Below, in pieces: positions 2,005 through 37,029 of a DNA stretch of 64,000 nucleotides (positions are counted from its first letter, which is position 1; each line of letters starts with the position of its first letter). The DNA is from Arctopsyche grandis (lineage: Eukaryota > Arthropoda > Insecta > Trichoptera > Hydropsychidae). The position numbers and the translations under genes were made by a program. The notes under the pieces were generated by a model. The model had not been told where the DNA came from. It was given only the letters and a program-made list of their open reading frames with translations, and did no database searches. The stretch spans positions 33,013,501-33,077,500 of the forward strand of contig NC_135359.1 in NCBI RefSeq assembly GCF_051622035.1. Direction: 5' to 3'.

Positions 2005-5000
2005 CTATTTTTGTTGCCTTGTTTCGCTTCTAGACCTTGGTTCTTTAGACAGAGGAATTTCTTTGTCAGACCTCGATTTTCCGCCGATAACAAATCCCAT
2101 ATTTTTTAAATGGTCATTCGTATTCGATTCGAGTCGTTCATTAACTCTGATTCTCACTTGATAAGATGAGAATCCATCGCCTTTAAAGTCTGGCAAGCTT
2201 CCCTTTCTCATTCTACGTTTAACAGCGGGCCCTGCTTTAGTTTTTTTGTACTGTTTAGATTTAGAGAATATCTTTGGATCACTTTCCGACGAAAATTCGT
2301 CCTCATTACCGTATGCCGCTACTTTAATTTCGTTTCGTGAGTCTGCTGCTCCTGCCAATGCTGCTGCCACAATACGTCTATGATCCAACACTATTATACG
2401 CTGTTTATTCTCTTCAACGATTACAACCGCTGATACTTCTCCCTTCCACCCCTCCGTCTTTATCTGTTCCGATAATTTTGTAATAGTCATTCCATCTCTT
2501 GTTTTGTATCCGATGCTGCTCTGAGAGAAAAGAACGGTTCCGTTCTTGATTCTTTGAAACAACTCATCGCAAGGTATGCTAATAGTGTCTTTGCGTGCTC
2601 CGCCGAACAAACCAATAGACATTGAAAACTTATGATAGCCAGCTTTGACGTCATCTCGCATGATTCCTTCGAAACAGTCTGCTATTTTTAGTCTGAATGT
2701 ATCAGGCGTCATATCGAGCGTAGGCAATGCACTTTGTATAGCTTCAAACAGACAATTGTTTTGGCCGTCTCCTGGTGAATTGTTCCCTGCGCCGATCAAT
2801 CTGAAGTGTTCACCGATCAATTGAAGAGGAATAGTAGGTCCTCCTTCACCGAAGCTGAAAGTTTGAGATACGTTATTGTCTCCCACAACTACAATATTAA
2901 TCCCAGGTAGTCCAAGTGCGGTTGGTAGTATTTTAGAGCACGCTTCAACGCATAACAAATTCATCGGAATATTTTCTTTCATTATAGTTGCAAACAATTT
3001 CGGACTTTTAGTGTTGGCCAGCAGTATTAGCATATTCTTTTGGTATTGTTTTTTTATACTATTCAAAACCGGCGTATCTTGGTTCTCAATCCGACTCATG
3101 TCGTCTTCATACTGCTTCTTCAATTCCGAAAACTCATCAAAGTGTTTTGACTCTTTGTAGAGCTCGTAGCCGTCCTTTATCTTTTCGCCGATGTATCCTA
3201 CCAAGCGATGTGCTTGTTTGTTAATAATCGGCTTCACGATGTTTTGAGTTACGATCCTTCCGACGTGGTCGTTAAGTTGGGACTTTATCTGATCGACGAC
3301 ATTCATTTCGAAGGTGTCGTAGTCACTCCCTTCGGGCTTGCGATCTTGTAAGTTTTGGTTCGAATCGTACTTTGACATGTTCTTCTTCAATTCGTTATCA
3401 ACACTGTCAACGTAATCGATGGTAACGTTCGCTATTTTGACAAGATGAGCCACCCTCTCTGACCATGTCACACCTTTGCAAATTGCTTTGATAGGAATTT
3501 TGAAATTATTTCCGGCTTTGGATACTTTCTTGGAAGCGTCTTCAATCCCTTTGGTTATGTTGCCAACTATATCCTTCGCAATCGATAAAAACTTATCCAT
3601 GAAGCTGTTTTTGCTAGTGTGAAAAATCTTCAACACCATTTGAACTATCTCCATGGTAGTTTTTTCTCCAAATTTATCATAAGCTGTTCTTAATGTAGTC
3701 TTTATATTATGTCTGTCTACTTCGGCCCCAATGCAATCCGTGATCGTCGAGAGCAATCCTTTGCACAATGTATCGAAAACGTTGTCAACAAATCGGTCAA
3801 CAAAAACATTGGTCATTCCAAATGCAACTCCTTCTATCCCCTTCAATATAATTCGTTTTCCTACCTCCTTCCATATGTTTATTTTCATTTCTTGAATGCC
3901 AGCCTGACCCAAATGCTTTATGAGAGTTTTACCCGCGGCTTTACTGCCTTCCACGCCATTCAACATAAGACCGGGTTTTATGAACTTCCGACCAAACTCT
4001 GACATTTTGACACCTTTTGAAAAAAAACCAGCGATACCAGCCGTACATATTGAGATCACTACACTGATCTTCTTTTGCTCCCAATAGTTTTTCCAACTAA
4101 AATGACCGGACATGAGAGATCCGCAAGCGAACATTAAATCATTTATGCCCTCCCCTATGAAAAATCCTCCCACATGAGTCATCAAACCAACCGAGTATAA
4201 CTCGATCAAAACTCCTATTGCTATTTGAGCCATACCCAAAAGTATAATTCCAGAAACGTTAAGAATCATTTTGAGAGTCCATTTTTTTTCCCCCAACTGG
4301 ATCACGTTATCTAAGCCGTCGAGTTGAAACACATGTATATCTTCCGCCTTTGAAAACGCATTCTTCTCAAAACAATCCGGCAGCAATTTCAGATTAAATT
4401 CAGGCACGTCTATGGTATCCAAGTCGCTTGTTAACCGATTCAACGTATTTTGAAAAAATATCCGAGTTCCAGACTCGGAGAGTGTCCGGTGGTTTTCTAA
4501 TATTTTTTCTATAGTTTCTTGAAAGCTTCGAAATCTACCATCCAATGATCCGTTAAACGATTCGTTTATAACATAATTGGCCATGACTGTTTTATGAATT
4601 TTCGTAATTTCTAGATTTTTGATAGATTCTTTTACGCTGTAATCCAATAAAAATTTCTTTTCGATTAAATGATTGACAAGATCCATCGTACACTCTTTTT
4701 GAGGGATTAGTTTACTTTTTTTTAAAAAATCCAATATACTGTCTTTCGTAACTATTCGTTTGTACATGTTTTTCAAAGAGTCTTCAAAATCTATGGTTTC
4801 AGTGGTCACGCTTACGGGTTTAATAATTCGTTTAAGGATTAAATCTCCGATTAGTTGATTGTGAGGTTTTACAAACATAGATACGGTTGGTTTGTCGCTT
4901 TTTTCAACAATTTCTTGAAAAGCTATTCGGTAAGCAAACTTCAAATGCATCAGCGTTTTCACAGCAGCTTCATATATCGGATACGATGAAAGTTCAATTT

Positions 5001-8000
5001 CGCTAATTTCACTGTATTGAATATTCAATTGATAAAGTTTACTGCCCAATTTCTTCTCTTGAAGGATTTTATTTTTAACGAGTTCGTCTATGATTTCTTC
5101 TGCGACGCCTTGTGCAATGCTATGTTTCATGAAATCTTCACACCCGACAGAGTCGTAAAGGGGAAAACTGACGTTTGTTTTATTTTTGATGTCTACGTGT
5201 GCTTTTTTGTTGAATTTAAATACTCCTCTGCTTTTTAGCTTTCGATATTTTTCACTGTTTACAAATCTGAGAAAATCGCCTTTGATGAAAATAATGTAAT
5301 CGTCTTTCAACTGAGTGATTTGTTCTGCATACAAAAGAATTTGATTCGCGCCACACTCCAAAGTTTGGCGGCTAATCTTTTTGTTACTTTCACTAAGCAA
5401 CTTTAACAATGATGGATCAATTGTCTTCAATGCATCAATGCTCACTACAATATATTTGGTCTCCTTCTTGAAGATCTTCAAATCGATTGCATGTTTCCAA
5501 AACAATTCCCTACTGGGGAATGTGACGCATTTCTTCATCTCTTTTTTGAAAGTAGTCTCGTCGAAATTATTACAATTTGTTAAAAAATTTCGTAAATTTT
5601 CACTATCTATTCCGTATTCGAAGCAGACATTCTCCAATAGATTCCTCAAATTATTATGATCTATCTCAAATTGTCGTAATATCCCTTGTTGTAATAGATC
5701 TTCGTATACAGTCTGCGACAAGTCATCGTTCACAGAAAGACACACAAACGATTGAGGCGACACAGAATGTCCGAGAATATCATCTATGGAATTTGTAAAA
5801 GCTGAAACGATACTGTTTATGTTCTTCTGCTGCTCTTCGTAGCCTTCTATTTGAAGGATTCCGCTATTGGTTTGCCTCAACTTGTTTATTGTACTCGCCA
5901 TCCTCAAAATAAACTCTTCGCTTTTGTTGAAGATATCAGCAGCTTTACGCAACTCAGTTTTGATACTATTCGATAGGTTTGTATTGATTGAAAAATTAGC
6001 TCGAGTGATTCTCTTGGAAAGAGCGTGCGCTTTGTAATAATGTGCAGCTTCGCAAAAATGAGGTTCTTGGTTAATAACCTTATCGAATACTGCGATCGCC
6101 TCCTCGTGACATTTGTTTTGAACGAAATATTTGGCTAATTTTAGAATTTGAAAAGGGCTAGCGATCCACTCGCAAAAAGTGGTTAAATCATTATTTGTGC
6201 TTATTGTTAACGAATAGTTGAAAGGGGAAATCTTTTGCATTGCTTCCTTAAACGATTTCATGAAACTGGGAATCACGCATTCTATCTCTCGATATTTACT
6301 GTTCATTTCGGTTAGAAATTCCTCTAAAATATCATCATCGTTTGCCAACTTGTCTATGTCTTTGCTGTGTTTGTCCAACCAAAAAGCCCATTTGTCGAGA
6401 CAGCTTTGAGTCATGATAGTTTGCAATTCTTCTGAAACGGAGTAACTCCTCAGATTATTTTGTAGCTCCTCGTACTTCTCTTGAAACTTTCGAAAGCATT
6501 TTTCTTCCACCGTGATGCGATTTTCGTAGTAGGCTTTGATATCAGATATTCGGTGCAGCTCTTCGCCGTCGCGTTGCTTTTTCAGCTCCAGAATTTTATA
6601 TTTATGATTTCTAGAAGCTTCGGAGTTTACAATGACCAATTGACCAGATCCCTTCTCGCCACATCTCGCTGCTCTTCCAAAAGCTTGTTGTTCTATTCGG
6701 ATATTTGTTGGCAAATAAGTCAGACAGACGTACAATCCTCCGGCGTCTTTCATAGCTTTCGATATTTTTATGTCTGTTCCACGACCAGCGAGATTAGTGG
6801 CAATGATTACGTGTCCCGGTTCCAACTCCATTTCATTTTGGATTATGTCAAACTCTTCGTAATCTCTAGTGTACGTATGGACGAATCCTTTATCCATCTC
6901 AACAACCATAGCTTTAGACACAGCTTCCACGTCTTCTATCGTCTCGCAGATGATCAAAATGGATCGCTTTTGAATTTTAGTTACCTCTGACGCTTTAGCT
7001 AACACCTTCTCTATCCATTCGTCTTTATTGTTGCAAACGAGTGGTTGATCTTCGATGAACTGCTTACATTTTGCTGTCGGAATTGTGACGAAATCGACAG
7101 AATATATCTCCTTCAACAGATCTCTCTCTCGCTTCGATCCTAAAGTTCCCGTCAATCCAAACACATTCTTATATAGTTTAATAAAGGACACGTTCGATAT
7201 GAAAACGGCTTTCAAAGACTGCATGGAAAGTCTACATCCGTGCTTCAGTTGTAAAAACTGATGCAACGCCTTATCCCATTGGGAATTGGCGTGATCTGCT
7301 CCAGTGTCTCTATCCAGGATTATAACGTTTGGATTCCGATCTGAGCTCTGTCCAGTTCTGTCCACATCTACTATGTAATCTTGACGATCTTTCATGAACA
7401 GTGCAATTTTGGCGCTCGTAATCCAAGAATCCAGGTGTAGCTCCACGAACGGTTTCAGGTACTCAGGTATGCGAATGTACTTTTCGGCTTCGCTACTAGT
7501 CTTCAATAAGTAGATAAGATGTTCAGCGTATTTTTCAAACGAACGAGATACAATTATTCTCACTCTATCGAAATCATCGTTTAACAATTTCCCTCTGGCG
7601 TCTATTACATTTTCTTTCACCAAGCACTCCCAAAGTCGATTCGATCGTTCTCCATCGTTTTGACACACTCGTTCGACGTCTTCCTTATTTATCATCGTGT
7701 ACAAAATAGATAGCACGGCTCTTTTGATGAGGTCCGAATCAAAAGTGTAAGCTATCTGTTCGATATTCGACGCCGGCCTGTTGATCCACTGCCATATGAA
7801 GACGTAAACTGACTCCAGCTTGTCCAAACCAGGCAAATCGTGCGATAGATACAAAACATTATTACCTTTGTCCAGTAACATGCTATCCACTTCATCAACG
7901 ATGATATTGTCGTAGCTGCTATTACCCAGGATGTTCTTCCCGTAAAATCTATCGAGCAAATAGTCACGCTGGAAGTTGGACAAGTCACCGTAAACGACTT

Positions 8001-11000
8001 GGTTGCTTGAATACATGTTCTTCTTGGCGTCGATGTCTTCAGTACAGTTGTGCGACACGTTCACATCGAAGAGACCATAAATATCGCGATTATCGTCGGC
8101 GTCACGTTTCGCCAACACGGGAGAGCTGGTGACCACGTCAACCCTTTCTCCACAAAGGGCTTTCATTATGGCCAGAGTCACGACTATCAGAGACTTGCCT
8201 TCCCCGGTGGATATCTGCGCCAAAGTATTGGAATCGTTGTTGAGGAACGTCAGTACGGACAACTTTTGGGTGTTGCGAAGTTTGAAATCCCTCTTCAGCT
8301 CTATCGCTCTGTCTATAACGGCGAGTAAATTTTCGCAATTTTGCATTATATATTCTTTCACTTTCACTCTATCGTCTTTGATGGATTTAATTGTGCCGTT
8401 TTTAAAATCCTTGGCCCATTTTTCAATATCGGCTTCTGACAATTTGCTCGTTTTATTCATGGTTTTGAAAGACGATATCTTTTCGCGAATAGCCGGTGAA
8501 GTGTTTGAATTTTTCGTTATCAATTTCACTAATTCGTTAATGTCCCTCTCTCTATCTGCCGAATTGAAAATTTTATGAAATCCCTCAAAGATTCCTTTGT
8601 TAAAGAAATTTTGCATCTCTTCCTCTGTAAAGACACCTTTTTCGTTATAAAAATGTAACACTATCTCGTAGAGCTTGTCGGGACTCAACGTTTTTTTATT
8701 GCGCTCCAAAATCTCCAAGAACATGGCTACCAGGGATTCTCCGTGTGTATTCTCCAACGACAGAACATAGTAGGAAATCAGGGGCAGTTTATCGTTCTTG
8801 CTCCAATCGACAATCTGTATTAATTTATATTCCCAATATTTCTCCCTGAGGGCATACGGCCATTCTGTAAGACCAATTTCATCCAAATTGATAGTATCAG
8901 TCGGAATGCAACTCAGCGTGCGCAAAATCGTATCGACGCATTCGATGTAAGTAGACGGCTCATTTCTGCATTGGTCAAGTTTCATTATAAGCGACATCAG
9001 AATAGCGACATTTTCTATCTCCAGCAAGTGCTTCATCCACTCTGTCCGATCTGAGAGCGATCTCTGGAAAAAACTTTCGAGACGCAGCATCATTAAACGA
9101 GCCATCCACTCGGATTGAGGGCAAGTAGTGACAACCCAACTGAATATGTTTCCTAAACAATCGTCATTGACCGTCGAATTTAAGACACAATCTACAAGAT
9201 AAAACAGTTCTTCAAAAGACACTTGCCTACCCTCCGTAGCGAACCGCTTAGCGATATAGTACAGAGCGCTGGAGTTACCAATGTATTCCGAAGATATCGT
9301 CTCTAAATAACTCTGCATGCGTGCTTTTTCATGTTCTACTGTGAAAGTGGCCGAGATGGTTTTCATGTCTTTTTCTTCAGATGATGGGTAGCCAGTATAG
9401 AAAGTTTTGTTGTTCAAGTAATCGTCGTATGAGAAGAATTTACCGGTCTCAAAGTAGTTAAGAATGGCTGGTACTTTTTCGAGGAGCTCAATTTCAGAAA
9501 GGATTTTTGCATACATGTCGTTTTTCCACTGCCTTTGTTTTTCCAATTTGAAATAATCATCATAGACATTCAACTGCTTAAAGTCACCGTTGGCAGTCAA
9601 GTGGAAGTGCAAGCAATTCGTCGCGGAATAGTTGTAACTGTCCGTCAGATAATATTCTTTCTGTTCATTTCGACCGTAAACTTTGATGTTGACATCAAAA
9701 ATGCATGCCAACAATTCTCTATAGCTTTCAGAATTCGGACCATTCTCTTTGATGTGATTGGAATGCTCTTTGATAAGAAGTTTATCTTTTAAACATTCGT
9801 TCCAATCGTATTCCAGTTTCATCGCAGCTGTAAAACGTCTGTAGAGACGTTTCAGATACTCATCTCCGTTAATTTTTTGCAACATTGCACTCGTGCGGTG
9901 CTCTTGGTAACCATTTCCGATGCATGGAACATTCATATATTTCAATCTACTAAGTTCGCTTTCCAAAGGACCGTAGAGGATGTTTATGGTATTTTCACGT
10001 GCCGCACAAAAGTTTGCATATTCAGAGCAATATTTTGCAACACTCGCGGACATTTCATCAGACTCAGATTTTTCACCCGACTCGGATGTTTCATCCGACT
10101 TTTCACCAGATTTTGAATTGATTTTTTCAATACGATCGGTCTTTTCCGAGATGAACTTTTTGATGGATTCCTTCAATGCTTCAGGGATATTTTCTTCGTC
10201 CTTAGTACTCTTCAAAAACGAAAATATTTTCTCATATTTGTCTGTTGTGTAATCGTGAAAATATTGATTTAAAGTGCCCAGAATATTGTGGGAAGCAATA
10301 TTCGCTTTCTCGTCGGATTCATAGAGATATTTCTCAGACAAGTCGTTGCTTGCACTAAAATCAGGCACACATGTGTTTATTTTTTTATCGACCTCTAGCA
10401 ATACAGCAGTGCGACATTTCTCGATTAAAAGAGTTTCAATCATTTTCAACACTCCTTTTCTTTCTAAACTATATTCAGCACTAAGTTGCAAAGATTCAAA
10501 ATGGGAAAAGTATTGTCTGACCTCGACGTAAGACAATTCTATATTTGTCAAGTTAGTCCAAAACTCCAAGACGTCGTTGGATAAATCATGGCTATATGTT
10601 TTTTTACTTTGTCTCGCTTTAATTTTGGGTCTAATTATTTTAGGGGTATTCTTTCGTTTGTAAATTCTAGACGTATGATAAGTTAAATTGCGCTTAAAAT
10701 TTTTCTCCATCGACTTCTTTTCACGTTGTTCCTTGCCTTCTTTGGAAACTTGGTCTAGTCGTTGTTCGATGTTGCTTAAATCTGATTTCAAACCATGCAA
10801 AATCGCCTCTTCAGAATTGAAACGGCTCGTATAATTATCTAAAAGGTTTGAAGTGGGTATAGCTTTTTTTCTCGTAGCTCTCTCTCGATTTCTCTGGTCC
10901 ATTTTCTTTTTAGTATTTCTTTCTTCAAATTTATCTAGTTTTATTTTACTTTGTCTCGCTTTAATTTTGGGTCTAATTATTTTAGGGGTATTCTTTCGTT

Positions 11001-14000
11001 TGTAAATTCTAGACGTATGATAATTTAAATTGCGCTTAAAATTTTTCTCCATCGACTTCTTTTCACGTTGTTCCTTGCCTTCTTTGGAAACTTGGTCTAG
11101 TCGTTGTTCGATGTTGCTTAAATCTGATTTCAAACCATGCAAAATCGCCTCTTCAGAATTGAAACGGCTCGTATAATTATCTAAAAGGTTTGAAGTGGGT
11201 ATAGCTTTTTTTCTCGTAGCTCTCTCTCGATTTCTCTGGTCCATTTTCTTTTTAGTATTTCTTTCTTCAAATTTATCTAGTTTTATTTTACTTTGTCTCG
11301 CTTTAATTTTGGGTCTAATTATTTTAGGGGTATTCTTTCGTTTGTAAATTCTAGACGTATGATAATTTAAATTGCGCTTAAAATTTTTCTCCATCGACTT
11401 CTTTTCACGTTGTTCCTTGCCTTCTTTGGAAACTTGGTCTAGTCGTTGTTCGATGTTGCTTAAATCTGATTTCAAACCATGCAAAATCGCCTCTTCAGAA
11501 TTGAAACGGCTCGTATAATTATCTAAAAGGTTTGAAGTGGGTATAGCTTTTTTTCTCGTAGCTCTCTCTCGATTTCTCTGGTCCATTTTCTTTTTAGTAT
11601 TTCTTTCTTCAAATTTATCTAGTTTTATTTTACTTTGTCTCGCTTTAATTTTGGGTCTAATTATTTTAGGGGTATTCTTTCGTTTGTAAATTCTAGACGT
11701 ATGATAATTTAAATTGCGCTTAAAATTTTTCTCCATCGACTTCTTTTCACGTTGTTCCTTGCCTTCTTTGGAAACTTGGTCTAGTCGTTGTTCGATGTTG
11801 CTTAAATCTGATTTCAAACCATGCAAAATCGCCTCTTCAGAATTGAAACGGCTCGTATAATTATCTAAAAGGTTTGAAGTGGGTATAGCTTTTTTTCTCG
11901 TAGCTCTCTCTCGATTTCTCTGGTCCATTTTCTTTTTAGTATTTCTTTCTTCAAATTTATCTAGTTTTACGTTCTCTACACGTTTACTCACAATACTGGC
12001 ATACAATTGTTTATAATCACACCAAATACCACTGCTATCATCGCTATATTCAATAGTAAGTTTACTATTCATATCTTCGCCGTAAATTTTTTGCCACTTA
12101 TAAAAAATATCTATGGAATAGTCGAAATAAGCCATATCCCACCCGTTTTTACCATGTTTACCATAAAGTCCACCTTTGCCTTCCTTGCCTTCTTGTCCAT
12201 TATTATTGTTTTTCCCAATATCAAAATAATGACCATCTTTAATATTTTTCACGGTAATTTCACCAGCGAATCCACCTTCGCCACTACATCCTCCTTCGCC
12301 ACCACATCCACCCGCTTTGCCCAAAGATCCTTTGTAAACGATAAACATTTGTAAGGAACCCAACCCGTCATACATAGAATAAATAATCTCATTCCCACTA
12401 CTGGTTATAACATGTTTGAAAACTTCTCGGCCGTTTCTTTGAACGTGAGAATTTTTGACAGTGGCAATATCTTCTTTCTCTATACTTCGACGATATTTTC
12501 CAACTGGAGTTTTTATTTTGCCACGACGTGGAAATTTATTGAAAAACTGTGCCGGAGTCAAACCCGATCCATTCGATCCATCTGCTCCTTTTCCACCTTC
12601 TTGACCCTCTCCGCCTTCACCACCGTTCGAAATGATGTTGAAATTTTGCGGAAAATCTATGGAATCCGCCAAAATTAGAACATTTCCACCACTTTCGCCA
12701 ACACTTCCATCGGCACCCGGTTTTCCCTCTCCGTTGCCATCTGTGCCGGTAATGTTTGAAAAGTTGCTCACAGCAGTTTTCCCAGAAACATTCCAAACGA
12801 CAGTTTCATAAACCTTAATCGATTTCACGACAACCACTACATTTTTTCCGCACCAAACAGCATTATCTAGACTGGCATCGATGTGGAAAATATTGGCACC
12901 GACGATACGCACTTCTTCCACTGAAGGATTGTTCGTAATTTTCATTCTTACTTGAGGTTCAATTTCACTGAAAATTATGCTTTTTCCTACGACTTCGACT
13001 ACCATTCGTCCGTCGACTGAATTCTCATATATTTCCACACCTCTTATGAACTCGCCAGCAATTTCTCTCAACTTATCTGTGAGGAAAAATTCGGTTTCAT
13101 TCGATAAAGTTTCAGCTGCTTGCTTCAAAGCTGAAAATTCGACACTGTCGATATCTTCACATTTTAGAATATTCACCAATAAATCCTTAAAAGGCAAACT
13201 TCCAGATGAAAAATTCTGCAGACGCAATTTAACAGCAATCCATTGTGTGTTCTTGAATACATTAAAAAATTCCACAAATACTTCGAAAAAGTTAACTTCC
13301 TTCTTGGTGAAATCTCTAAAAGCAGACATATAGTGTACACATTCTGATTCAAGCTTCTCCAGAAAATCATTTTCGATATCTTTGTCAACAAGCGAATAGT
13401 GTTCATTCAAAAGTGCATAATAAGGCAACGATTTGAAACAGTCAGGAATTTGATCTTTACTTTTCAATTTACCAATTACTTGGAGCAGCTTTTTAAAAAT
13501 GTGATAGTTCTTATTGTCGATCGTATCCTTGAAAAACTTAACAACATTCAGCATAAAAAACTCAATACAAAGTTTCAAATATACTTCATCGATGTAAGTG
13601 CAGTCGATCCCGCTCAAAGGTGTCTCATATTTTCCTTCGATTATGATTTTGATATTCGACAAATTCGTTTTGTACTCTTCGATCTCTTCTCGGATGATAT
13701 TGTCAATGTTATGCTTGTGAACTGTTTTTCTGTCGATTTCTGAATTGGTCATGCACTTTGTATAAAGACTTTTTGCCGTCATTTCATACCTATGGGCCGC
13801 TTTGGAGTTTTCCGCAAAACTGTAAGCTTTCGCAATCAGATTAGAATAGGTTGCTATGACAAAGACACTGTTGCTATTTGGAATGGCTATGCTTTCTTCC
13901 AGTTGATTTATCGCCCAGATCAATTGAATGCCCATAATTTTTAGCCACAAAATATCGTCGCAACTTTGCAACGTTTGGCATTTCGAAAAATCTCCAAAGT

Positions 14001-14490
14001 AAATTGAAGACTTCAGAATATGCATATGATCAGCATCAACATTTTCAAAATATACATCTTTCCTGTCAGAAATATTTCTGACTTCTTTAAGAGAACTTTC
14101 AGCATCGTCTTTTAATTTTTTTGTTGCCGCAGACAAATTTTCATCGGGGACTTCGCTAATTTTCTCCAGACAATTTTCCAAAAATATTTGGACACTCTCC
14201 AGAGCGATTCGCTCTCTGGTGAAAATATCGTTGTAGCATGATCCTACGGCGTAGTAGTGAAAGGCCAATCTTATGCAGTATTCATGGTAAGACCACGAAT
14301 TTTCATTTGATCGTATGTCGTCTCTTAACTGTTTATACAGAACGCTTATATCGCTTGCCAGTTTCATCAACCAATCTTCCCCATTCGGATCAAGGCTAGA
14401 ATAATCATCGAGCAACTCTTCAATATTCTTCAGTGAAATGTTTTCCGCTACACAACGGGACAGGTACACTCTTCTACGTGTTTTAGTCAT
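2005..14490 (-). CDS. Giant SecA-motor / latrotoxin-C-terminus-like / OTU-like protein, 4161 aa, intronless
   Basis: One uninterrupted ORF. Residues 1-560 are helical, with TPR-like stretches. Residues 575-790 hold two glycine-rich collagen-like tracts. Residues 843-1296 are four 114-aa repeats. A SecA-type motor follows: Walker A STGEGKS (Lys2099), Walker B DEVDS (Asp2199-Glu2200), GLTGTLG near 2447, ATNLAGRGTDIK near 2570 (the SecA motif V signature) and GRAARCGE (Arg2606). A TPR-like repeat lies near 2790. A hydrophobic Gly/Ala-rich segment at about 3400-3490 with a 'FSWKNYW' motif resembles the latrotoxin C-terminal domain reported in phage WO of Wolbachia. An OTU-like protease core follows: DGQNNCLF (Cys3913) and candidate His4037 in VLDHRR, 124 residues later. 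Bacterial SecA drives preprotein export, but no SecYEG partner is expected in insect nuclear DNA, so the role is unknown. The absence of introns and the symbiont-type domains suggest ancient transfer; that is inference. No signal peptide is evident. Confidence 0.85.
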   Translation of the reverse strand: MTKTRRRVYLSRCVAENISLKNIEELLDDYSSLDPNGEDWLMKLASDISVLYKQLRDDIRSNENSWSYHEYCIRLAFHYYAVGSCYNDIFTRERIALESVQIFLENCLEKISEVPDENLSAATKKLKDDAESSLKEVRNISDRKDVYFENVDADHMHILKSSIYFGDFSKCQTLQSCDDILWLKIMGIQLIWAINQLEESIAIPNSNSVFVIATYSNLIAKAYSFAENSKAAHRYEMTAKSLYTKCMTNSEIDRKTVHKHNIDNIIREEIEEYKTNLSNIKIIIEGKYETPLSGIDCTYIDEVYLKLCIEFFMLNVVKFFKDTIDNKNYHIFKKLLQVIGKLKSKDQIPDCFKSLPYYALLNEHYSLVDKDIENDFLEKLESECVHYMSAFRDFTKKEVNFFEVFVEFFNVFKNTQWIAVKLRLQNFSSGSLPFKDLLVNILKCEDIDSVEFSALKQAAETLSNETEFFLTDKLREIAGEFIRGVEIYENSVDGRMVVEVVGKSIIFSEIEPQVRMKITNNPSVEEVRIVGANIFHIDASLDNAVWCGKNVVVVVKSIKVYETVVWNVSGKTAVSNFSNITGTDGNGEGKPGADGSVGESGGNVLILADSIDFPQNFNIISNGGEGGEGQEGGKGADGSNGSGLTPAQFFNKFPRRGKIKTPVGKYRRSIEKEDIATVKNSHVQRNGREVFKHVITSSGNEIIYSMYDGLGSLQMFIVYKGSLGKAGGCGGEGGCSGEGGFAGEITVKNIKDGHYFDIGKNNNNGQEGKEGKGGLYGKHGKNGWDMAYFDYSIDIFYKWQKIYGEDMNSKLTIEYSDDSSGIWCDYKQLYASIVSKRVENVKLDKFEERNTKKKMDQRNRERATRKKAIPTSNLLDNYTSRFNSEEAILHGLKSDLSNIEQRLDQVSKEGKEQREKKSMEKNFKRNLNYHTSRIYKRKNTPKIIRPKIKARQSKIKLDKFEERNTKKKMDQRNRERATRKKAIPTSNLLDNYTSRFNSEEAILHGLKSDLSNIEQRLDQVSKEGKEQREKKSMEKNFKRNLNYHTSRIYKRKNTPKIIRPKIKARQSKIKLDKFEERNTKKKMDQRNRERATRKKAIPTSNLLDNYTSRFNSEEAILHGLKSDLSNIEQRLDQVSKEGKEQREKKSMEKNFKRNLNYHTSRIYKRKNTPKIIRPKIKARQSKIKLDKFEERNTKKKMDQRNRERATRKKAIPTSNLLDNYTSRFNSEEAILHGLKSDLSNIEQRLDQVSKEGKEQREKKSMEKNFKRNLTYHTSRIYKRKNTPKIIRPKIKARQSKKTYSHDLSNDVLEFWTNLTNIELSYVEVRQYFSHFESLQLSAEYSLERKGVLKMIETLLIEKCRTAVLLEVDKKINTCVPDFSASNDLSEKYLYESDEKANIASHNILGTLNQYFHDYTTDKYEKIFSFLKSTKDEENIPEALKESIKKFISEKTDRIEKINSKSGEKSDETSESGEKSESDEMSASVAKYCSEYANFCAARENTINILYGPLESELSRLKYMNVPCIGNGYQEHRTSAMLQKINGDEYLKRLYRRFTAAMKLEYDWNECLKDKLLIKEHSNHIKENGPNSESYRELLACIFDVNIKVYGRNEQKEYYLTDSYNYSATNCLHFHLTANGDFKQLNVYDDYFKLEKQRQWKNDMYAKILSEIELLEKVPAILNYFETGKFFSYDDYLNNKTFYTGYPSSEEKDMKTISATFTVEHEKARMQSYLETISSEYIGNSSALYYIAKRFATEGRQVSFEELFYLVDCVLNSTVNDDCLGNIFSWVVTTCPQSEWMARLMMLRLESFFQRSLSDRTEWMKHLLEIENVAILMSLIMKLDQCRNEPSTYIECVDTILRTLSCIPTDTINLDEIGLTEWPYALREKYWEYKLIQIVDWSKNDKLPLISYYVLSLENTHGESLVAMFLEILERNKKTLSPDKLYEIVLHFYNEKGVFTEEEMQNFFNKGIFEGFHKIFNSADRERDINELVKLITKNSNTSPAIREKISSFKTMNKTSKLSEADIEKWAKDFKNGTIKSIKDDRVKVKEYIMQNCENLLAVIDRAIELKRDFKLRNTQKLSVLTFLNNDSNTLAQISTGEGKSLIVVTLAIMKALCGERVDVVTSSPVLAKRDADDNRDIYGLFDVNVSHNCTEDIDAKKNMYSSNQVVYGDLSNFQRDYLLDRFYGKNILGNSSYDNIIVDEVDSMLLDKGNNVLYLSHDLPGLDKLESVYVFIWQWINRPASNIEQIAYTFDSDLIKRAVLSILYTMINKEDVERVCQNDGERSNRLWECLVKENVIDARGKLLNDDFDRVRIIVSRSFEKYAEHLIYLLKTSSEAEKYIRIPEYLKPFVELHLDSWITSAKIALFMKDRQDYIVDVDRTGQSSDRNPNVIILDRDTGADHANSQWDKALHQFLQLKHGCRLSMQSLKAVFISNVSFIKLYKNVFGLTGTLGSKRERDLLKEIYSVDFVTIPTAKCKQFIEDQPLVCNNKDEWIEKVLAKASEVTKIQKRSILIICETIEDVEAVSKAMVVEMDKGFVHTYTRDYEEFDIIQNEMELEPGHVIIATNLAGRGTDIKISKAMKDAGGLYVCLTYLPTNIRIEQQAFGRAARCGEKGSGQLVIVNSEASRNHKYKILELKKQRDGEELHRISDIKAYYENRITVEEKCFRKFQEKYEELQNNLRSYSVSEELQTIMTQSCLDKWAFWLDKHSKDIDKLANDDDILEEFLTEMNSKYREIECVIPSFMKSFKEAMQKISPFNYSLTISTNNDLTTFCEWIASPFQILKLAKYFVQNKCHEEAIAVFDKVINQEPHFCEAAHYYKAHALSKRITRANFSINTNLSNSIKTELRKAADIFNKSEEFILRMASTINKLRQTNSGILQIEGYEEQQKNINSIVSAFTNSIDDILGHSVSPQSFVCLSVNDDLSQTVYEDLLQQGILRQFEIDHNNLRNLLENVCFEYGIDSENLRNFLTNCNNFDETTFKKEMKKCVTFPSRELFWKHAIDLKIFKKETKYIVVSIDALKTIDPSLLKLLSESNKKISRQTLECGANQILLYAEQITQLKDDYIIFIKGDFLRFVNSEKYRKLKSRGVFKFNKKAHVDIKNKTNVSFPLYDSVGCEDFMKHSIAQGVAEEIIDELVKNKILQEKKLGSKLYQLNIQYSEISEIELSSYPIYEAAVKTLMHLKFAYRIAFQEIVEKSDKPTVSMFVKPHNQLIGDLILKRIIKPVSVTTETIDFEDSLKNMYKRIVTKDSILDFLKKSKLIPQKECTMDLVNHLIEKKFLLDYSVKESIKNLEITKIHKTVMANYVINESFNGSLDGRFRSFQETIEKILENHRTLSESGTRIFFQNTLNRLTSDLDTIDVPEFNLKLLPDCFEKNAFSKAEDIHVFQLDGLDNVIQLGEKKWTLKMILNVSGIILLGMAQIAIGVLIELYSVGLMTHVGGFFIGEGINDLMFACGSLMSGHFSWKNYWEQKKISVVISICTAGIAGFFSKGVKMSEFGRKFIKPGLMLNGVEGSKAAGKTLIKHLGQAGIQEMKINIWKEVGKRIILKGIEGVAFGMTNVFVDRFVDNVFDTLCKGLLSTITDCIGAEVDRHNIKTTLRTAYDKFGEKTTMEIVQMVLKIFHTSKNSFMDKFLSIAKDIVGNITKGIEDASKKVSKAGNNFKIPIKAICKGVTWSERVAHLVKIANVTIDYVDSVDNELKKNMSKYDSNQNLQDRKPEGSDYDTFEMNVVDQIKSQLNDHVGRIVTQNIVKPIINKQAHRLVGYIGEKIKDGYELYKESKHFDEFSELKKQYEDDMSRIENQDTPVLNSIKKQYQKNMLILLANTKSPKLFATIMKENIPMNLLCVEACSKILPTALGLPGINIVVVGDNNVSQTFSFGEGGPTIPLQLIGEHFRLIGAGNNSPGDGQNNCLFEAIQSALPTLDMTPDTFRLKIADCFEGIMRDDVKAGYHKFSMSIGLFGGARKDTISIPCDELFQRIKNGTVLFSQSSIGYKTRDGMTITKLSEQIKTEGWKGEVSAVVIVEENKQRIIVLDHRRIVAAALAGAADSRNEIKVAAYGNEDEFSSESDPKIFSKSKQYKKTKAGPAVKRRMRKGSLPDFKGDGFSSYQVRIRVNERLESNTNDHLKNMGFVIGGKSRSDKEIPLSKEPRSRSETRQQK
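10605..11972 (-). repeat. Four in-frame tandem repeats of 342 bp (114 aa)
   Basis: The same block recurs with an exact 342-bp period; a shared GTCTCGCTTT landmark lies at 10611, 10953, 11295 and 11637. The period is a multiple of three, so the frame is kept. The copies are almost identical in DNA. The clearest difference is one codon giving Asn to Thr in the C-terminal-most copy (near 10680). The encoded unit is rich in Lys, Arg and Glu and looks like a charged helix or coiled coil (begins LDKFEERNTKKK). Near-identity at silent sites points to recent expansion or gene conversion. Confidence 0.97.
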
Positions 14491-36239: not shown

Positions 36240-37029
36240 TTAACCCCCTAATTTGTAACGAAAAACATTAACCTGTTGACAATGCATCGATACATCGGTT
36301 GTTTCATCTGCCATAACAGCTAGATAAGTTGCTTTTTTTATTTCAGCACTTATTTGTTCCCTACACACGTTCAAAATACAATCTAAAAGTTCATTTTGAA
36401 TAGTTTTTGATGTCCCTTTAAAAACCGAAGAAGTTTGGAAATGTTTTTTTAAAGAATCGTCGAAATTTTGTGAATATTCTAGAAGCCCCCGAAAAACTCC
36501 TGGATTTTTTGAATTATCTGTTTCATCGTGTCCCCTCATTGGCATTTCAAATTTACCGCAAAATTTAACGCAATCAATAAATTTAAATAAAACATCCCGA
36601 TTTTTTTTTGACGTTTTCGTTATGCTTATCTATTTCCCGCCGACAAGCTTCCCAAAATCGTGAGATTACACACATTTTTTAAGTGTTCGACACTTCCCTC
36701 GTGTTTTTAAATTAATCGTTTAAATGTTTTTAGTCAATAACTCCTGTTTTTGTCCAAGATGCTTCGCCTGGCGACTCGCCTCCAAACAAAAGACACGGAT
36801 AACAAAATAACGCGTTTTTTTCTGTACATCTCGTTAACCAATTGTATTTTTTATAAATGTCTGGATTAAATTTTCGCGAGTAACTAAAAGATCTACTAGT
36901 TGCAGGCTGTGAAATAATTAAATTGGGCGTGAGGCAGCCTAATGCTTTTATAGCGACTTTTTCGGTAAGTTCTAGTCGCGAAAAGTGCAAATTTTGTAAA
37001 TATTTTACTGAATTCTTTTGTTCTTCCAT
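36240..37029 (-). pseudogene. ZMYM1-like hAT transposase fragment
   Basis: Minus-strand ORFs cover an N-terminal TTF-type zinc-finger region (36730-37029: 'WLTRCTEKNALFCYPCLLFG') and a downstream part (36240-36545: 'MPMRGHDETDNSKNPGVFRG', 'VMADETTDVSMHCQQVN'). The second includes the ADETTDVS motif, which holds a catalytic aspartate of this hAT group. The frame is broken between them, and the C-terminal catalytic and dimerisation parts are gone. Confidence 0.85.

Follow-up and report, generated by a model that had tools for sequence, protein, structure and literature searches.

What is a giant protein with a bacterial SecA-type motor doing on the chromosome of a caddisfly? The question is raised by a 64,000-nucleotide stretch of the Arctopsyche grandis genome (NCBI RefSeq assembly GCF_051622035.1, contig NC_135359.1; hereafter the window), which corresponds to C5:33013501-33077500 of a 475.7-Mb assembly in 189 contigs and contains one open reading frame (ORF) of 4161 codons. 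Our analysis moderately favors the view that the encoded protein is an animal, chromosome-borne representative of an old protein family whose giant members share the build of polymorphic toxins, and that in this motor-driven protein a permuted OTU-type peptidase frees an effector tip. The features on which this rests are collected in Table 1.

The C-terminal tip is exchanged at a conserved Gly-Gly

The motor region of the protein has 357 homologs at E ≤ 1e-3, and 122 proteins (the best 120 of these and two more, numbered P) were studied. Named sources among the best 120 are Wolbachia, bees, ants, mosquitoes, flies, a moth, a butterfly and true bugs, and further Artemia, nematodes, rotifers, mussels and a brittle star. 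The match to the window protein reaches residue 3880 in 91 of the 122 homologs. Together with those of the window protein and of its paralog on contig C11, their 93 tails fall into 20 BLAST clusters (31, 26, 10 and 5 members, five pairs and 11 singletons), a number that overstates the tip types because the singletons include very short or truncated tails (P0035, P0045, P0046) and the C11 end. Nine clusters have at least two members. The tip of the window protein has a full-length counterpart in only one of the 122 homologs, P0018 from the group B Wolbachia of Ischnura elegans, at 43% identity.

Near-identical trunks were found to carry tips from different clusters. P0008 (Wolbachia of Tribolium confusum) and P0011 (Wolbachia of Brachyopa scutellaris) share 99.755% identity over 3667 residues and diverge at the residue after the motif FGG, while P0017 and P0018 share 96.07% identity over 3687 residues and diverge two residues further on. 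These pairs are independent of any tree, but they come from or near Wolbachia. When the nine tip types with several members are mapped onto the motor tree, the 82 typed rows require a minimum of 20 changes, a count that leaves out 46 of the 128 rows (untyped or singleton) and is inflated by weakly supported forks; 300 shuffles gave a mean of 43 and a minimum of 38. The tips are partly inherited and often exchanged.

Three of the eight homolog tips that were scanned passed a Pfam cut-off, namely a GIY-YIG nuclease (P0076), a DNA/RNA non-specific nuclease (P0113) and an OTT_1508 deaminase (P0100). The other five passed none, and the two largest clusters, both represented in the scan, are without a known family. 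HNH-like and SGNH-like motifs were read by eye in other tips. Since near-identical trunks carry unrelated tips that part at Gly-Gly, and since three of eight tips are of nuclease or deaminase type, the combination of a trunk with interchangeable C-terminal effector domains is, judged by its sequence, a polymorphic-toxin architecture. The original prediction for this locus, made without database searches, had overlooked the exchangeable tip. Used as tblastn queries, the 93 tails revealed no additional copy of a tip, either in the window or in the other loci retrieved.

The tip of the window protein contains FSQSSI and VLDHRR, which, compared by eye with the motif table of PMC3482391 only, give a ParB-like reading. 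A ParB-like nuclease fold, as in Tox-ParBL1, is a lead that the two motifs suggest; the tip gave no ParB profile match. AlphaFold assigned the tip a predicted local distance difference test score (pLDDT) of 33 on a two-row alignment, and a weak KOW1_SPT5 match (20.4 bits, with a cut-off of 22) is absent from the tip of P0018. No relatives of the tip were found in viral or genome contig collections, nor were relatives of the motor or the full-length protein found in viral contigs or, at E ≤ 1e-20, in phage records; the contig scans are weak evidence of absence because each of them searched with just a few (two to six) short peptide patterns.

Two further observations concern protein ends. Homologs P0087, P0088, P0090, P0071 and P0080 carry a GDSL/SGNH-like stretch, recognized by eye, after the common tip type, and they seem to be without the pre-tip Cys segment. 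A 2966-aa SecA-like protein on a plasmid of Candidatus Bandiella woodruffii (NZ_CP110822.1, 1-8901) ends in a lipase-like GHSLGG, again read by eye, which is possibly another tip type.

A permuted OTU-type domain precedes the tip

The residues of the pre-tip domain that would form its active site are strongly conserved. Across 50 aligned rows, the Cys, the His and a basic residue are invariant (50/50 each) and the aromatic neighbour of the His is kept in 49. His3895 precedes Cys3913 in all 50 rows, a reversed catalytic order. A structure model predicts an OTU-type fold, to which the permuted OTU EschOTU is nearest at modest similarity. By position, conservation and predicted fold only, the domain directly before the tip would count as releasing-peptidase-like. 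An acidic residue or Asn at His+2 is not kept (the seven commonest residues in the 50 rows are Q16, T13, E8, S4, R3, Y3 and N1, and the window protein has Arg), and mutating this residue can leave activity intact in some OTUs (PMC7396840).

EschOTU resembles the domain in its His before Cys, aromatic residue after the His, conserved basic residue and OTU-type fold, but has Asn at His+2, where the window family is variable (PMC7396840); the window domain differs further in directly preceding a Gly-Gly junction inside a giant protein. Another permuted OTU-like enzyme is LupA (PMC10318531). No match to the Pfam OTU profile was obtained with the whole protein (E ≤ 1) or in a scan of the pre-tip segment, a profile that a permuted domain may well fail. 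Foldseek against viral models returned nothing at E ≤ 0.001.

An OTU-like protease had been predicted from the pair DGQNNCLF...VLDHRR. The OTU-like peptidase stands, but this pair does not, the conserved pair being His3895/Cys3913 in reversed order. Both strings are present but in different modules, DGQNNCLF in a family-wide domain and VLDHRR in the tip. A further ground for rejecting the pair is that Wolbachia P0018 has no D-G before its NNC. The latrotoxin-like C-terminus proposed for the preceding part found no profile support (Pfam, E ≤ 1 for the whole protein and E ≤ 10 for residues 3381-3700), and a PDB search for it returned three unrelated matches at E ≥ 0.8. Residues 3381-3540 are matched by BLAST in 110 of the 122 homologs. 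Membrane insertion through the strongly hydrophobic residues 3406-3436 was considered and rejected, since the property is not conserved: of the 122 homologs searched, 27 bear the motif MTHVG, and 14 of these reach the hydropathy threshold close to it, whereas Wolbachia P0008 and P0018 do not reach it at any point.

The motor is of SecA type

The motifs STGEGKS (residue 2094), DEVD (2199), GLTGT (2445), ATNLAGRGTD (2564) and QAFGRAARCG (2602) occur in SecA order, and Pfam matches were obtained to SecA_DEAD (E = 3.1e-32) and P-loop_SecA (E = 1.1e-10). In the PDB, every one of the 24 matches at E ≤ 0.01 is to a SecA chain (best E = 2.2e-34), and their alignment spans both nucleotide-binding lobes. 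The protein has a DEAD motor of two lobes, complete with Walker A, DEVD and motif VI, and the SecA-type motor with intact motifs was predicted correctly.

The protein shares with the SecA preprotein translocase both nucleotide-binding lobes and the motifs, but it is not a full-length SecA. The wing/scaffold family is not among the seven Pfam families matched at E ≤ 1, no more than a trace of the preprotein-binding domain is seen (Pfam E 0.04), and the scores lie far under the NCBIfam cut-offs (136 bits for TIGR00963 with a cut-off of 800; 174 for the best model, NF006630, with a cut-off of 862). SecA is not known to have a role in the animal cytosol.

Proposed release of the tip

Read from the N-terminus, the protein would consist of a long trunk with the SecA-type ATPase motor, the conserved pre-tip segment, the permuted OTU-type domain ending in Gly-Gly and the exchangeable tip. 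The trunk may recognize a partner or compartment, and the motor may use ATP for unfolding or threading. In ubiquitin, the cut made by OTU enzymes follows a Gly-Gly, and for this reason we propose that the peptidase would cut its own chain after Gly3964 and free the tip, which could then act on a target of its own, nucleic acids or other. Such a protein might play a role in conflict with symbionts or parasites.

The motor and the OTU-type domain could also belong to a host-domesticated cytosolic unfoldase-deubiquitinase. The original prediction had offered an unfoldase coupled to deubiquitination as one reading; here, ubiquitinated clients would be unfolded by the motor and stripped of ubiquitin by the OTU-type domain, and the tip would serve in targeting only. 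The OTU-type model and the conserved Cys and His agree with it, as does the nearest structure, EschOTU being an active deubiquitinase (PMC7396840). However, it leaves unexplained the nuclease and deaminase tips, the Gly-Gly right after the peptidase and the exchange of tips, and the C11 paralog has the motor without the peptidase. We consider the unfoldase-deubiquitinase unlikely; the anatomy agrees better with a tip that is released by the protein itself. That the family forms a chromosomal polymorphic-toxin system of animals, whose SecA giant threads and self-releases at Gly-Gly and whose tips are swapped between animal and symbiont genomes, is put forward as a tentative proposal.

The gene is real and under purifying selection

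The frame runs from an ATG without internal stop between exactly the ends predicted for it, and at the level of the DNA it may be called intronless in that it is open from end to end. Nine places in the genome match SecA_DEAD, namely the window gene, the C11 paralog, six copies of about 1460 aa and one short piece. The C11 paralog lies on another chromosome-sized contig, encodes 3521 aa and is collinear with the window protein (54% identity over 2723 aa and 53% over 960 aa); its end is lost, the motor being kept without the peptidase. A simple Nei-Gojobori count over 3432 codons of this pair gave 0.299 nonsynonymous (dN) and 1.12 synonymous (dS) substitutions per site (0.149 and 0.93 in the motor alone), the ratios outside the motor being rough because dS climbs to 1.6-1.9 there. 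The window gene is under purifying selection. A chance ORF is ruled out, because the collinear paralog on the other contig is also open and dN is 0.30 compared with a dS of 1.12. It is a real, conserved and unusual gene, which the host has kept with its motor motifs intact, as had been supposed.

A multicopy state, seen here as well as in the ant Harpegnathos, a C11 copy without its end and transposase-like frames in the window would also be expected of a selfish or drifting family that multiplies and decays with no role for the organism. Purifying selection across the compared codons and candidate catalytic residues that are invariant in 50 of 50 rows make this explanation highly improbable.

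The six copies of about 1460 aa lie at C6:2.44 Mb, C12:24.7 Mb and C11:5.96, 7.10, 29.17 and 29.19 Mb, with mutual identities of 52-91%; one of them, L015, is apparently split by a frameshift. They retain DEVD but lack Walker A and motif V/VI strings such as the long type has, and their resemblance to that type is confined to the motor (25-31% identity). On plasmid CP113870.1 of Candidatus Megaera polyxenophila, SecA-like genes for 5225 and 1589 aa are adjacent. A shared operon of long and short SecA, which this plasmid suggested, was rejected, as the product of 1589 aa resembles the long type more closely than it does the type of about 1460 aa.

The sampled Wolbachia are not the donor

Trees of the motor were built quickly (128 rows x 822 columns) and, more carefully, with a mixture model (39 rows x 830 columns). 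Both unite the Wolbachia rows in a shallow clade close to Osmia, Chilo and Artemia (100/100 in the careful tree). The window gene and C11 form a 100% pair elsewhere, with ants as weakly supported next neighbours (81/32). One clade of these two with eight Wolbachia rows was rejected by the approximately unbiased (AU) test with p 1.8e-5, the group having been named after the tree was seen.

A transfer in which the caddisfly acquired the gene from Wolbachia or phage WO, as a host capturing a symbiont toxin, would agree with the closest named matches (best 120 of 357), which include Wolbachia proteins with 57% identity in the motor, with the presence of the full window tip type in a single Wolbachia homolog, and with the eukaryotic-like secA carried by phage WO (PMC5062602, PMC9203015). 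The trees and the AU test speak against it, and for the giant secA the opposite direction, from animal to Wolbachia, was argued in 2013 (PMC3639933). We regard such a transfer as improbable. The symbiont or phage origin that had been predicted thus holds as kinship with Wolbachia and phage WO genes, but not with the sampled Wolbachia as donor, because these form a shallow clade inside animal sequences and the window gene pairs with its own paralog. An older symbiont donor may be considered. Plasmids of Candidatus Megaera polyxenophila, Candidatus Bandiella woodruffii and Legionella geestiana encode relatives of 5225, 2966 and 2947 aa, respectively, which show 29-34% identity in the motor and fall outside on long branches of unsure placement.

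Chromosomal setting and further features

Outside the gene, the window has 105 open frames of at least 75 codons, and 69 were scanned for families. Three matched NUBPL-type ParA, two cytochrome P450, one CDGSH and one DUF4371, and others DDE/HTH families of transposase type, which is consistent with an insect chromosome. Within what the DNA itself can tell, the paralog on another contig and the insect-type genes in the window exclude that a bacterial contig was joined here by misassembly. The DUF4371 match (36243-36629, minus strand, E 1.3e-9) is probably a transposase remnant. Elsewhere in the assembly, a COX1 copy that is open under the invertebrate mitochondrial code lies at C1:36084329-36085669, about 36 Mb along its contig, and is either a recent nuclear copy or joined mitochondrial sequence. 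It matches the Pfam model over its full length, and its translation under that code shares 98% identity with Arctopsyche sp. XG-2022, 94% with Maesaipsyche and 93% with Parapsyche, in agreement with a caddisfly host close to Arctopsyche.

Within the gene, residues 501-900 are matched by BLAST in 106 of the 122 homologs. The 342-bp unit of the tandem array occurs once in the C11 paralog (BLAST), and because this paralog has one copy and those of the window gene are near-identical, the array is a very recent amplification, or else an assembly effect.

Table 1. Coordinates of the gene and its parts in the window
Feature	Residues	Position	Strand	Remark
Whole reading frame		2005..14490	-	4161 aa, single open frame
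Glycine-rich region	501-860	11911..12990	-	15% Gly
Tandem array		10602..11969	-	4 in-frame copies x 342 bp (114 aa), differing by 0-1 base
SecA_DEAD domain	2006-2453	7132..8475	-	Walker A at 2094, DEVD at 2199
Second SecA nucleotide-binding lobe	2484-2620	6631..7041	-	ATNLAGRGTD and QAFGRAARCG
Conserved family segment	3381-3540	3871..4350	-	"latrotoxin-like" part of the original prediction
Permuted OTU-type peptidase-like domain	~3820-3964	2599..3033	-
His	3895	2806-2808	-	candidate catalytic
Cys	3913	2752-2754	-	candidate catalytic
Arg	3933	2692-2694	-	conserved basic
His	3953	2632-2634	-	in OTU-like domain
Gly-Gly junction	3963-3964	2599..2604	-	conserved; variable tip starts here; putative release site
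Variable tip	3965-4161	2008..2598	-	contains FSQSSI and VLDHRR

Comparison with known systems

The known toxins that carry an exchangeable tip are mainly bacterial. If our reading is true, many insects and some crustaceans, nematodes and rotifers own giant effector-releasing machines in common with Wolbachia, some with nuclease or deaminase payloads. Three questions thereby become accessible: self-cleavage of a permuted OTU at Gly-Gly, a possible action of animal tips on nucleic acids, and the direction of the gene trade between Wolbachia and animals.

The giant "eukaryotic-like secA" has been known since 2013 from Wolbachia wBol1 (wBol1_1092, 11,829 nt) and its insect homologs (PMC3639933). 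The window gene resembles wBol1_1092 in length, SecA domain, sharing between animals and Wolbachia and full-length kin in Harpegnathos; by length, the comparison that was made, wBol1_1092 equals P0007 (3942 aa), and wBol1_1091 is similar to the six copies of about 1460 aa in the caddisfly. Variable tips and a permuted OTU domain are not described in the available portions of that paper, nor were exchangeable tips or a permuted OTU domain reported in the accessible literature on secA giants, subscription journals, preprints and supplements lying outside its scope. The family is thus known in outline by name, and its polymorphic-toxin architecture and reversed-order OTU domain in animal chromosomes appear to be new.

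SecA-like ATPases also occur in giant toxins of actinobacteria, which by their description are alike in placing such an ATPase within a giant toxin-like protein but are actinobacterial and have glycosyltransferase and transporter domains (PMC8195603). Polymorphic toxins and the effectors of Amoebophilus share with the window family the conserved trunk, the position of a releasing peptidase before the tip and the exchangeable C-terminal effector; Tox-PLOTU domains are mostly releasing peptidases, and OTU peptidases and SecA-like domains are found among the Amoebophilus effectors (PMC3482391). Unlike these, the window family has the SecA motor and the OTU-type domain, in reversed order, on one trunk before the tip, and consists of chromosomal genes across animals.
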